This document shows positions 14,030-34,316 of a stretch of DNA of 34,316 bases, piece by piece. Within the stretch, counting starts at the first letter, position 1. Each line of letters begins with the position of its first letter. The notes under the pieces were generated by a model, which saw only the letters and a program-made list of their open reading frames with translations, was not told where the DNA came from and ran no database searches. Source of the DNA: Hyphomicrobium sp. (GTDB lineage: Bacteria > Pseudomonadota > Alphaproteobacteria > Rhizobiales > Hyphomicrobiaceae). The stretch spans positions 40,660 through 74,975 of the forward strand of contig JALHQM010000002.1 in assembly GCA_022841965.1 (NCBI GenBank), read 5' to 3'. The translations under genes and the position numbers were made by a program.

Positions 14030-14518
14030 ATGAACATCGCGCAGGGCGTGAAATCACTGTTCCTCATTGAATTCGTGAAGGCCTTCGGCCTCTCGATGCG
14101 GTACTTCTTTGCTCCGAAAAAGACGCTCAACTACCCCTTCGAGAAGGGACCTTTGTCGCCCCGGTTTCGCGGTGAGCATGTGTTGCGGCGCTATCCTAAC
14201 GGGGAAGAGCGCTGTATCGCGTGCAAGCTGTGCGAGGCGATCTGTCCGGCGCAAGCCATCACCATTGAAGCGGGGCCGCGGCGCAATGACGGCACGCGGC
14301 GCACGACGCGGTACGATATCGACATGACGAAGTGCATCTATTGCGGGCTGTGCCAGGAGGCGTGTCCGGTGGATGCGATCGTGGAAGGGCCGAATTTCGA
14401 GTTTGCGACGGAGACGCGCGAGGAGCTTTTTTACGACAAGGATAAGTTGCTTGCGAACGGTGACCGTTGGGAGCGCGAGATTGCGCGAAACATGGCTGCG
14501 GACGCAAAGTACAGGTGA
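14030..14518 (+). CDS. nuoI: NADH-quinone oxidoreductase subunit I
   Basis: NuoI (TYKY/NDUFS8 homologue), 162 residues, is an 8Fe-ferredoxin-type subunit that carries clusters N6a and N6b between NuoG and NuoB. Two complete motifs are seen: Cys62-Cys65-Cys68-Cys72 ([12 protein letters not shown]) and Cys102-Cys105-Cys108-Cys112 ([12 protein letters not shown]). An amphipathic N-terminal helix would dock to the membrane arm. It is followed by a 99-nt gap containing a palindromic element before nuoJ. Confidence 0.97.
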
Positions 14519-14569: not shown

Positions 14570-14595
14570 CCCTCTCCCCGCGCGCGGGGAGAGGG
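14570..14595. repeat. 26-bp perfect palindrome (REP-like) between nuoI and nuoJ
   Basis: The left arm CCCTCTCCCCGCG (14570-14582) is the exact reverse complement of the right arm CGCGGGGAGAGGG (14583-14595). It has no spacer. It is the only element in the nuoI-nuoJ gap. Similar CCCTCTCCCC...GGGGAGAGGG palindromes are, from memory, dispersed in rhizobial genomes. As there is no T-run, it is probably not a classic terminator, though a hairpin in mRNA could stabilise the upstream message. Confidence 0.85.
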
Positions 14596-14617: not shown

Positions 14618-15250
14618 ATGCTGACGGCAGGGTTCTTTTATCTGTTTGCGGTGCTGGCGATTGCGTCGGCGACGATGGTGATCGTTGCGCGCAACCCTGT
14701 GCATGCGGTTTTGTACCTCATCCTGACTTTCTTCAATGCTGCGGGTCTTTTCATCCTGCTGGGTGCTGAGTTTCTGGCGATGCTGCTGGTGATCGTCTAC
14801 GTCGGCGCGGTCGCGGTGTTGTTCCTGTTCGTCGTGATGATGCTGGATGTGGACTTTGCGGAGTTGCGTGCGGGCTTCATAAACAATGCGCCGATCGGGT
14901 TGCTGGTGGCCGGCATTGTGCTGGTCGAACTCATTGCGCTGTTCGTGTGGGGGGCTGCCGGCGGGTTGCCGACGGCGATCCCCACCGCCGCTGCCGGGAC
15001 GGAAACGCTCTCCAACACGGAGCAGATCGGCCGCGTGCTCTATACGAAGTATGTGTACTTCTTCCAGGCGGCAGGGCTGGTGCTGCTGGTGGCGATGATC
15101 GGGGCGATCGTTTTGACCTTGCGGCATCGCGAGGGTGTGAAGCGGCAGTCGATCGCGGCACAAAATGCGCGCACGCCAGCGACGGGGCTGGAGATGGTCA
15201 AGGTGGCATCGGGCGGCGCTGTCGTGCCGTCGAGCGAGGCCAAGCCATGA
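14618..15250 (+). CDS. nuoJ: NADH-quinone oxidoreductase subunit J
   Basis: NuoJ (ND6 homologue), 210 residues with five expected membrane helices, takes part in the proton path next to NuoK. The conserved stretch EFLAMLLVIVYVGAVAVLFLFVVMM marks the pi-bulge helix region. The C-terminal tail after the last helix is soluble and somewhat long. Start ATG 14618 follows a weak ribosome binding site soon after the palindrome. The stop overlaps the next small gene (ATGA). Confidence 0.96.
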   Translation: MLTAGFFYLFAVLAIASATMVIVARNPVHAVLYLILTFFNAAGLFILLGAEFLAMLLVIVYVGAVAVLFLFVVMMLDVDFAELRAGFINNAPIGLLVAGIVLVELIALFVWGAAGGLPTAIPTAAAGTETLSNTEQIGRVLYTKYVYFFQAAGLVLLVAMIGAIVLTLRHREGVKRQSIAAQNARTPATGLEMVKVASGGAVVPSSEAKP

Positions 15251-31044: not shown

Positions 31045-34000
31045 ATGACACAGACGATTCCGCCGCCGCCCAAATTCATTCACCTCAAGGTTCACTCAGC
31101 TTATTCGCTGCTGGAAGGCGCGTTGCTGATCGGCCGGCTCGCGAAGCTGGCGGACGGCTATGGATTTCCCGCACTCGGGTTGACCGACACGAACAACATG
31201 TTCGGTGCGTTGGAGTTCTCCGACAAAGTGGCGGGCTCGGGCATTCAGCCGATCGTGGGGGTATCGGTGTCATGCCTCCTGACGGAGAAAAAGGCCAAGC
31301 CCGGACAATTGCCGGGTCCAGTCGTGCGGCAGCATGCGTGGCGCGATGGGGTGCTGGCGCTCTATGCGATGAATGAGGCGGGTTACGCGAACCTGATGAA
31401 GCTCGTTTCGGCGGCGCATCTGGGGACGGAGGGCGAAGACGCGCCGTTCGTGAGGGCCGAGCAGATCGCGGCACATGCGGACGGATTGATCGCGCTAACG
31501 GGCGGACCGGATGGGCCGATCGATCGGGCGCTGCTCGATGGGCAGCCTGGGCTGGCGGACGAACGGCTTCAGTTTTTGAAGCGGGCGTTTGGCGACCGGC
31601 TCTACGTGGAGGTGCAGCGGCATGGGACTCGCGCCGAGCAGGAGGTGGAGCCGCAGCTGTTAGAGCTTGCGTACCGGCATGGCGTTCCGATTGTCGCGAC
31701 GAATGAGGTCTACTTCGCGACGCCCGATGATTTCGAGGCGCATGATGCGCTGCTGTGTATCGCGGATGGGCGATATGTTTCGGAAGATGATCGGCGGCGG
31801 GTGACGCGGGAACATCATCTGAAGTCGGGCGAGGCGATGGCGGAATTGTTTGCCGATCTGCCTGAGGCGGTTGCGAATACGATTGAGATTGCGAAGCGGT
31901 GTGCGTTTCGCCCGAAGGGCAAGAAGCCGATCCTGCCGCGGTTCGTGCAGACGAGTACGGGAACGGATGCCGATCAGTTGGCAGCGGAAGCAGCTGAGCT
32001 CAAGCGGCAGGCGGAAGAGGGCTTGCGTGAGCGGCTAAAGGTTGTGCCGTTGGCGGCGGGCTTTAGCGAGGAGGACTACTGGGCGCGCCTCGCGTTCGAG
32101 GTCGACGTCATCACGAAGATGAAGTTTCCCGGCTACTTTCTCATCGTGGCCGACTTCATCAAGTGGTCGAAGTCGAACGGCATTCCGGTGGGGCCGGGGC
32201 GCGGTTCGGGTGCGGGTTCGCTGGTTGCGTATTCTCTGACGATCACCGATCTCGATCCGTTGCGGTTCGGCCTGCTGTTTGAGCGGTTTCTCAACCCGGA
32301 ACGTGTGTCGATGCCGGACTTCGACATCGACTTCTGCCAGGACAAGCGCGATCAGGTGATCCGCTACGTTCAGCAGAAGTATGGCTCGGATCGGGTTGCG
32401 CAGATCATCACACACGGGAAATTGCAGGCGCGCGCGGTGTTGCGCGACGTGGGCCGCGTTTTGCAGATGCCGTATGGGCAGGTGGACCGGCTGTGCAAGC
32501 TGGTGCCGAACAATCCCGCCAACCCGGTGACGCTCGATAAGGCGATCGAGGGTGAACCGAAACTCCAGGAAGCACGAGACACGGACGAGGTGGTGCGGCG
32601 GCTGTTGCAGGTGGCGCAGAAGCTGGAGGGGCTCTATCGGCATGCCTCGACGCACGCGGCTGGCATCGTGATCGGGGACCGGCCACTGGATGAACTGGTG
32701 CCGCTCTATCGCGATCCGAAATCGACCATGCCGGTGACGCAGTTCAACTGGAAAATGGTGGAAGCGGCGGGGCTCGTCAAATTCGACTTCCTCGGCTTGA
32801 AGACGTTGACGGTGCTGGAAAAGGCGGTTGATCTGATCCAGCGTGGGCGCGGGATTTCCGTCGATCTGGCGACGCTAGCTCTGGATGATGTGCCGTCGTA
32901 TCAGCTGTTGGCGAAGGCTGACACAGTCGGTGTGTTCCAGCTGGAAAGCACGGGCATGCGCGAGAGCTTGAAACGCCTCAAGCCCGACCGCTTCGAAGAT
33001 ATCATCGCCATGGTGGCGCTCTATCGCCCGGGCCCGATGGACAACATTCCGACCTACATCAATCGCAAGCACGGAGAAGAGCCGGTCGATTTCCTGCATC
33101 CGATGCTGGAAGGCATTTTGAAGGAGACGTACGGCGTCATCATCTATCAGGAACAGGTGATGCAAATCGCGCAGGTGTTGGCGGGCTATTCGCTCGGCGA
33201 CGCTGACTTGTTGCGCCGTGCGATGGGTAAGAAAGACAAGCTGGAGATGGCGCGGCAGCAGGCGCGCTTTGTCGAAGGGTCGATGACGAACGGCGTCAAT
33301 AAGGATGACGCGGTCACCATTTTCGAGCTGGTCGACAAGTTCGCGGGCTATGGGTTCAACAAGTCGCACGCGGCAGCCTATGCACTGGTCAGCTATCACA
33401 CGGCGTATTTGAAGGCGAATTTCCGCGAGGAATTCCTGGCCGCATCAATGACGCTCGACATGGGGAATACCGACAAGCTTTCGATGTTCGCGGCGGAGGC
33501 GAAGAAGAGCGGCATTCCAGTGCTGCCGCCGTGCGTCAATGCATCGGATGTGGATTTTCTGGTGGAGACAAAAAAGGGGTCAGGCATGGGGTCAGACCCC
33601 TTACAGGGGTCTGACCCCGCTGCTCACGCATCTCAACGCGCCATCCGGTATTCGTTGGCGGCGTTGAAGAACATTGGTGCGTCGGCGGTGGAGACGATTG
33701 TGGCGTCGCGGACGGCCGATGGGCCGTACCGGTCGCTGTCGGATTTTGCGTCGCGGATTACGCCGAAGGCCTTGAACAAGCGCGGGCTCGAAACGCTATC
33801 GATGGCGGGTGCGTTCGATGGTCTGGAGCCGAACCGGGCGTTGGTGCGCGGCAATGTGGAAGGCATGTTGGCGCTCGCCAACCGGCAGGCGGAGAATACG
33901 GCACAGGGGACGAGCGATCTCTTCGGTGGCGGGGGCGGGGGCGCGCCGTCGCTCGATCTGAAACCGGCGAAGGCTTGGACACCAATGGAGCGATTGCAGG

Positions 34001-34316
34001 AAGAGTTCGATGCGGTCGGGTTCTTCCTGTCGGGGCATCCGCTGGATGCCTACGAAACGGTGTTGAAGAAATTGGGCGTGCGGCGCTTCGTGGAGTTCGA
34101 GGCGGCGACTGCGCGGGGCATCTCGGCTGGGCGGTTGGCGGGGATCGTGATTTCGGCCCGCGAGCGGCGGTCGCAGAAGGGCAACAAGTTTGCGTTTGCG
34201 CTGTTTTCGGACGCCAGCGGGCAGTTCGAGGCGGTGATTTTTTCCGATACGCTTGCAGCGTCGCGCGATCTTCTCGAAGGGGGGACGCCGGTGGTGCTCA
34301 ACGTGGAGGCCGAGCG
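31045..34316 (+). CDS. dnaE: DNA polymerase III alpha subunit, 3' end beyond window
   Basis: The replicative polymerase, 1090 residues visible and open at the right edge. The N-terminal PHP domain starts FIHLKVHSAYSLLEGA; two metal ligands of the usual HLHVHSDYS are replaced, so it is probably catalytically silent, as in E. coli. GRGSGAGSLVAYSL and the catalytic PDFDIDFC (424-431) are intact. After the fingers come tandem helix-hairpin-helix motifs, a beta-clamp-like motif TSDLFGG near 956-962, and the start of the OB-fold (LAGIVISARERRSQKGNKFA). An in-frame palindromic insertion adds residues about 843-864. Its place after lolD matches the housekeeping copy in rhizobia, not the mutagenic DnaE2. 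Confidence 0.95.
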   Translation, partial: MTQTIPPPPKFIHLKVHSAYSLLEGALLIGRLAKLADGYGFPALGLTDTNNMFGALEFSDKVAGSGIQPIVGVSVSCLLTEKKAKPGQLPGPVVRQHAWRDGVLALYAMNEAGYANLMKLVSAAHLGTEGEDAPFVRAEQIAAHADGLIALTGGPDGPIDRALLDGQPGLADERLQFLKRAFGDRLYVEVQRHGTRAEQEVEPQLLELAYRHGVPIVATNEVYFATPDDFEAHDALLCIADGRYVSEDDRRRVTREHHLKSGEAMAELFADLPEAVANTIEIAKRCAFRPKGKKPILPRFVQTSTGTDADQLAAEAAELKRQAEEGLRERLKVVPLAAGFSEEDYWARLAFEVDVITKMKFPGYFLIVADFIKWSKSNGIPVGPGRGSGAGSLVAYSLTITDLDPLRFGLLFERFLNPERVSMPDFDIDFCQDKRDQVIRYVQQKYGSDRVAQIITHGKLQARAVLRDVGRVLQMPYGQVDRLCKLVPNNPANPVTLDKAIEGEPKLQEARDTDEVVRRLLQVAQKLEGLYRHASTHAAGIVIGDRPLDELVPLYRDPKSTMPVTQFNWKMVEAAGLVKFDFLGLKTLTVLEKAVDLIQRGRGISVDLATLALDDVPSYQLLAKADTVGVFQLESTGMRESLKRLKPDRFEDIIAMVALYRPGPMDNIPTYINRKHGEEPVDFLHPMLEGILKETYGVIIYQEQVMQIAQVLAGYSLGDADLLRRAMGKKDKLEMARQQARFVEGSMTNGVNKDDAVTIFELVDKFAGYGFNKSHAAAYALVSYHTAYLKANFREEFLAASMTLDMGNTDKLSMFAAEAKKSGIPVLPPCVNASDVDFLVETKKGSGMGSDPLQGSDPAAHASQRAIRYSLAALKNIGASAVETIVASRTADGPYRSLSDFASRITPKALNKRGLETLSMAGAFDGLEPNRALVRGNVEGMLALANRQAENTAQGTSDLFGGGGGGAPSLDLKPAKAWTPMERLQEEFDAVGFFLSGHPLDAYETVLKKLGVRRFVEFEAATARGISAGRLAGIVISARERRSQKGNKFAFALFSDASGQFEAVIFSDTLAASRDLLEGGTPVVLNVEAE
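33576..33618. repeat. Palindromic repeat inserted in frame in dnaE
   Basis: GGGGTCAGACCCC (33588-33600) and its exact reverse complement GGGGTCTGACCCC (33606-33618) flank TTACA. Each arm is itself nearly palindromic. A partial copy GGGGTCAG (33576-33583) precedes, after a run of seven A's with one flanking base. The dnaE frame stays open across it and reads KKGSGMGSDPLQGSDPAA. GGGGTCAGACCCC-type motifs are, as I recall, dispersed REP-like sequences near IS200-like transposases in several proteobacteria. No transposase is present here. Confidence 0.85.

Follow-up and report, generated by a model that had tools for sequence, protein, structure and literature searches.

A palindromic repeat lies in frame within the gene for the replicative DNA polymerase of a Hyphomicrobium species, which raises the question of how it arrived there and how the polymerase tolerates it. 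The window, the whole stretch of 34,316 nucleotides that was analysed, corresponds to G000:C2:40660-74975, where G000 is the host genome, a 3.05-Mb draft of 150 contigs that is 88.8% complete. The dnaE gene, encoding the DNA polymerase III alpha subunit, forms an open frame at positions 31045-34316 of the forward strand; it continues past the window end, and its C-terminus is lost in an N-run. Directly past the window end (L038), the N-run fuses dnaE and the next gene, presumably that of a ribosomal protein S2-like product, into one false ORF of 1464 aa. The encoded protein is of the replicative type (NCBIfam NF004226, 1421 bits versus a cut-off of 1002), and its closest named relatives are from Hyphomicrobium (73%). 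Over gap-free columns dnaE is under strong constraint, with dN/dS values of 0.08-0.11 relative to five members of the same genus. The only other match of the DnaE segment (residues 586-1052) in the host genome is a paralogue, with 32% identity along the query's first 256 residues.

The repeat is part of an expanded loop of 28 residues (33559-33642, forward strand) between PCVNASDVDF and IRYSLAALKNIG, which in two relatives of the same genus, G001 and G003, comprises 13 residues. The loop encodes the peptide GSDPLQGSDPAAHASQR. Its central feature is a 31-bp palindrome, here called element A (33588-33618), in which the 13-bp left arm GGGGTCAGACCCC (33588-33600) and the 13-bp right arm GGGGTCTGACCCC (33606-33618) are separated by the 5-nt spacer TTACA; a partial arm copy, GGGGTCAG, is positioned just upstream (33576-33583), all on the forward strand. 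Each arm alone is a near-palindrome, and the two arms together form a perfect stem of 14 bp with a 3-nt loop. None of 300 codon shuffles of the host loop contains an inverted repeat as long as this stem. The RNA fold predicted for the stretch containing A has an energy of -44.9 kcal/mol (z -4.57), and none of 200 shuffles folds equally well. The 13-bp inverted repeat with its partial copy and the uninterrupted frame, both described in an earlier note on this DNA, are thus present, whereas the approximately 20 extra residues given there shrink to 15 in comparison with the nearest empty relatives.

The alignment to the alpha subunit of Escherichia coli (5fku) places the insert in the turn FHVND/DGEIVYG, at about residue 827 when counted by hand on the alignment. 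An AlphaFold2 model of residues 600-1090, calculated with 30 relatives, has a mean pLDDT of 89.9 and a pTM of 0.81. In this model the loop corresponds to segment residues 240-267 and connects strands 240-243 and 266-269; residues 248-254 have pLDDT values below 50, as does one other short stretch, 363-365. The insert is therefore predicted to be a disordered surface beta-hairpin turn, in agreement with the surface hairpin that had been suggested from the sequence, and the region after the turn is, we assume, the helix-hairpin-helix region. The turn is short in named alphaproteobacterial DnaE proteins, with 6-14 residues in 76 of 80 loci; L115, L128 and L148 were misparsed and dropped, and L090, also misparsed, appears to be a contig of G124, a genome discussed below.

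Element A belongs to a multicopy family. The genome-wide search for further copies proposed in the earlier note found the exact arm 42 times in the host genome (20 forward, 22 reverse), versus 0 and 0 for the reversed control. With up to two mismatches there are 75 and 80 matches, but the control also yields 25 and 16, so that only near-exact copies exceed chance individually. At least 25 two-arm copies were read in the host genome (26 among the matches listed, from which a weak copy on contig C7 was dropped). The spacer is 6 nt long in 23 of the 25, with the form T....A in 22 of those, and a 5-nt spacer is found among them only in the dnaE copy and in one on contig C119. Exact two-arm copies number 17 in the host, including the one in dnaE, 26 in G004 and two in G003, and there are none in the other 100 of 103 genomes of the family or in 384 further genomes drawn from the class. 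The element is present in three of six members of the genus and absent from the 97 family genomes of other genera, and it is thus confined to one genus as far as searched. The 12-nt flanks of the 25 copies, inspected by eye, contain neither a GTAG (GT(A/G)G) nor a CGTC tag at the palindrome foot, and a common target motif was discarded because none is clear in them. An Rfam search at eight loci with E up to 0.1 gave 13 matches, all under the gathering scores (12 miRNA families and one rpsB sRNA), which are not informative about the dnaE loop.

The likely mobiliser of element A, to judge from sequence, is a Y1 transposase encoded in the sister species G004. The corresponding domain, PF01797, was found in 14 of the 103 family genomes, and within the genus only in G004 (C1:243630-243953; 39.2 bits versus a cut-off of 23). 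Exact copies of A flank the gene at C1:243421-243452 and 244205-244236, with imperfect copies nearby. Against NF047646, the model for REP-associated tyrosine transposases, the protein scores 66.8 bits over residues 4-138, where the curated cut-off is 80; it contains the readable segments NHVHLLLQ and YIHGNPV, which we take to be the HxH and tyrosine motifs. The anatomy of the locus, so read, is that of a REP/RAYT unit without a GTAG or CGTC tag. No Y1 transposase was detected in the 88.8%-complete host genome either by PF01797, for which one candidate was scored, or with the G004 protein as query; the same query found no relative in G001, G002, G003 and G005. With neither a Y1 transposase nor a remnant of one detected in the host, the case for mobilisation in that genome comes from G004. 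The suggested search for a RAYT/IS200-like transposase thus came out negative in the host and positive in its sister species. The 31-bp palindrome would be one member of a family of small, REP/REPIN-like mobile repeats that are non-autonomous; a REP-associated tyrosine transposase of the Y1 type like that of G004 probably mobilised it in trans. The proposal that a REP-like mobile palindrome is kept in frame in dnaE is supported by the multicopy family, the empty loops of G001 and G003, the flanked Y1/RAYT-like gene of G004 and the position in a surface beta-hairpin turn.

The reading frame of dnaE passes through the arms as G|GGG TCA GAC CCC and GGG TCT GAC CCC, and a 6-nt spacer would turn the reading of the second arm into GGG GTC TGA. 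Frames were computed for perfect arms combined with the 25 actual spacers on both strands. The frame used by dnaE is closed in all 46 readings with the 23 six-nucleotide spacers and open in three of four readings when the spacer is one of the two of 5 nt. The dnaE copy therefore carries a spacer of the length that its frame requires. The remaining two frames, with six-nucleotide spacers, are open in 46 and 30 of 46 readings. G003 and G001 have a dnaE loop that is shorter than that of the host by 45 nt. A clean empty site was rejected: exact excision of the 31 bp shifts the frame, and in pairwise comparison with the host G001 and G003 give alignments with many gaps. Because 31 bp cannot be divided evenly into codons and the flanks are unlike those of the empty relatives, the presence/absence difference is real but not clean. 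The expectation of a clean difference between relatives accordingly holds in that G001 and G003 lack the element and fails in that the flanking loop sequence is altered as well. Element A may have arrived in the beta-hairpin turn itself or recombined into a turn that was already expanded, and the copy would have been retained because the 5-nt spacer together with the flank changes provides the stop-free frame that is observed. The insert is presumably translated.

An assembly artefact or a collapsed repeat would be conceivable in a draft of 150 contigs and 88.8% completeness, in which the 3' part of dnaE runs into a stretch of N. However, both flanks of the element belong to one dnaE frame, the 5-nt spacer is common to only one of the other 24 copies among those listed, and the same kind of loop is present in the better assemblies of G004 (20 contigs) and G077 (6 contigs). 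This explanation is hardly credible.

The same DnaE loop is occupied by other palindromes in related genomes. A DnaE orthologue was identified in 94 of the 103 family genomes (78 full and 16 split matches); eight contain weak paralogue matches only and one none. The loops of 67 genomes were read by a script, with long and split matches taken first, so that the sample is not random; the loop of G013, misparsed by the script, is otherwise 13 aa long, and the other 26 were judged from match length alone (405-408 nt, which corresponds to loops of 13-14 aa). The loops range from 6 to 82 aa without a common sequence, and 21 of the 67, a sample partly chosen for length, have at least 21 aa. Element A is present in one of the 67, that of the host, whereas G001 and G003 combine the empty 13-aa loop with an open dnaE. 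A different palindrome, type B (CCCTCTCCCC...GGGGAGAGGG), is in the loop of 12 genomes from six genera: G002, G004, G005, G018, G029, G070, G075, G078, G111 and G124, and as variants in G077 and G123. Element C occupies the loop of a single genome, G066, with one intact and one degenerate copy. Seven long loops are without intact A, B or C (G009, G014, G016, G021, G032, G033 and G076). B-like remnants are found in the loop of G032 and in the 17-aa loop of G117, and the G014 loop has its own 9-bp inverted repeat, reached in 26 of 300 codon shuffles. The longest loop, 82 aa in G029 (L204), contains DAAPPAHS tandem repeats and B hairpins.

The longest inverted repeat of the loop is beyond all 300 codon shuffles in G000, G002, G004, G018, G066, G077, G078 and G111, and it is reached by 2, 3, 9 and 11 of 300 in G075, G029, G124 and G070, respectively. 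The loops of G123 (40/300) and G005 (122/300) are B-like, but their longest inverted repeats are not beyond the codon shuffles. Like A, the two other elements are multicopy: for B, 74 of the 103 genomes together contain 1112 exact two-arm copies, versus one for the reversed control, in G022, and C was found in 8 of 103 genomes, with 92 copies in G066. Elements A and C have the core GTCAGACCC in common, so that the clear independence is that of B from A and C. The DnaE loop is thus a recurrent survival site, where the unrelated B and a relative of A, C, occupy the position elsewhere. The window itself contains an intact B element, CCCTCTCCCCGCGCGCGGGGAGAGGG, at 14570-14595, between the ORFs 14030-14518 and 14618-15250; it is preceded by GTGCAAGCGGCTGCC, a stretch that recurs within the dnaE loop of G018, where B is present.

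The explanation that we favour, with a probability of roughly 80%, is that RAYT-type repeats insert repeatedly and survive where the disordered surface loop of DnaE tolerates them. The residues encoded by the insert are predicted to form a disordered surface loop that is probably tolerated rather than used, and the recurrence would most likely result from many insertion attempts and an unusual structural tolerance, with no dedicated targeting system. Several observations stand against this explanation. Among them are the negative transposase search in the host, the sub-cut-off score of the G004 protein, the frame shift on exact excision together with the altered flanks, and the inverted repeats of G005 and G123 that do not exceed the codon shuffles. 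Another is the loss of codons at two further sites described below, which simple insertion does not predict. A further one is the number of 12 B-carrying genomes, which is high for tolerance alone: if the 1112 copies were spread evenly, 0.011 would be expected at one 40-bp site, and 0.108 if a tenth of the genome were open. This expectation is rough, since shared ancestry and longer retention of dnaE copies may inflate the observed number and exact two-arm copies account for only part of the 12.

The excess of B raises the alternative that the DnaE turn is a preferred DNA target, recognised by sequence or single-stranded structure, or that palindrome families interconvert there by recombination, so that the hotspot is partly a property of the DNA. 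Five of the six genera with B carriers also contain non-carriers; if these genera are natural groups, B must have been gained or lost five times or more. A scan for A, B and C with up to one mismatch in 28 family dnaE genes of full or nearly full length, including 5 of the 14 carriers, found matches exclusively within the loop (G000, G002, G004, G005, G018 and the G032 remnant); the one match outside the loop is in G042, which is not a family member. Moreover, the edges of the host loop, VET on the left and mostly RAIRYS on the right, match by reading those of the B carriers of the genus and not those of the empty relatives, as if one palindrome had been replaced by another. In a tree of 29 rows, the host is placed beside G002 (B) and G003 (empty) with support of 100/99, whereas the grouping of G001 (empty) with G004 (B) reaches only 90/60. 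In that tree, loop columns were dropped only if less than 30% filled, G017 and G042 have very long branches, and the host row crosses the N-run into the next gene. The B elements in the loop may go back to one ancestral insertion. Evidence against a preferred target comes from the 25 flanks of A, which by eye have no clear motif in common, and from the two further coding sites, which are unlike the dnaE site. The turn itself appears permissive, as many repeat-free family loops have 12-13 aa, exceeding the 6 aa common in the class. Overall, a DNA-level preference is unlikely.

The inserted peptide might instead have been recruited to adjust the polymerase or one of the contacts within the replisome, with selection retaining the element. 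The frequency of long loops (21 of 67 read) would fit such a function, as would the B-encoded peptides that recur across genera, by reading roughly PSPRxRGEG and PSPLPxxxGERG. Against it, the empty-loop relatives keep an open dnaE, and neither length nor sequence is conserved among the loops. Stop codons are frequent in the other loop frames, which could alone explain the recurring frame. Recruitment is thus improbable, and tolerance of repeated insertion remains the preferred explanation.

Two other proteins contain such elements well inside the gene. Element A is in frame in the MazG linker of the host (L239; PF03819), and B is in frame at the same linker site in G002 (L243), a member of the same genus; neither is present there in G001, G003, G004 and G005. 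In G004, a 30-bp copy of A with a 4-nt spacer is in frame in RNase R (PF00773; L176 913-942). The net gain over relatives is two codons in MazG, for a 32-bp element, and six codons in RNase R. These gains are below the element size, which indicates that native codons were replaced or lost. The placement of A copies relative to ORFs in G000 and G004 was too noisy for a count. Pfam assigned a family to 4 of 10 ORFs spanning A, and only in MazG and RNase R is the element well inside the gene. One further copy of A in the host (L009 1501-1532; G000:C5:71772-71803) is followed by the last 18 codons of an ORF whose product has the N-terminal domain of seryl-tRNA synthetase, with an N-run close by. 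Another, in G004 (L184 979-1010; G004:C4:195978-196009), is 32 codons past the first possible start of an ORF whose product has a class I tRNA synthetase domain, and it may be upstream of the true start.

A more far-reaching reading regards the DnaE hairpin turn of these Hyphomicrobium-related bacteria as a genuine hotspot, where selfish palindromes of unrelated families arrive, displace each other and stay in frame, as they would in MazG and probably in other essential proteins. This reading is tentative and, in our judgement, less likely than not. If it is true, an essential replicative polymerase contains a natural landing pad, and palindromes supply the proteins of this family with new disordered loops quite generally.

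Protein-coding palindromes are best known from Rickettsia and from scattered REP cases. In dnaE, and likewise in MazG and RNase R, a multicopy palindrome lies in an open frame and is absent from an orthologue, as for the Rickettsia palindromic elements (RPE; Ogata and others 2000, 2002, as cited in excerpts of PMC3733652 and PMC10969869), which are in-frame palindromes in protein genes. The RPE differ in size, about 150 bp by the description in the excerpt of PMC10969869 versus 30-34 bp for A, which is tied to a Y1 transposase of a sister species. With REP/RAYT units, as outlined in the available portions of PMC2817692 and in NF047646 and PF01797, element A shares the palindromes on both sides of a transposase gene, in G004, and the multiple copies elsewhere; it differs in the missing GT(A/G)G head, the sub-cut-off NF047646 score and the host genome, in which no transposase was found. 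The closest parallel is provided by intragenic GTAG/CGTC REPs, which, according to the excerpted text of PMC3733652, are likewise short palindromic repeats inside genes, many of them in genes of DNA synthesis and repair; A, examined by eye, is without their constant GTAG/CGTC end tag. The same excerpt describes a REP within DnaE of Rickettsia conorii as well as DnaE2 genes with REPs. Coding REPs were therefore already known from DnaE: the occurrence that the earlier note singled out stands as an observation but has a precedent in print. Among the literature matches listed, none is recognisable by its title and the opening of its abstract as describing a single DnaE loop that palindromes of different families use repeatedly. 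In recB of two Xanthomonas species different REPs are found at about the same site, whereas REPs in other genes of a category are at different sites (PMC3733652, as excerpted). In contrast to the latter, one loop of an essential polymerase has been occupied repeatedly by the different palindromes A, B and C across genera, and the related species, in which it is empty or filled with A, B or C, form a natural series for direct tests of the origin of inserted protein segments, of frame repair and of the tolerance of the polymerase.
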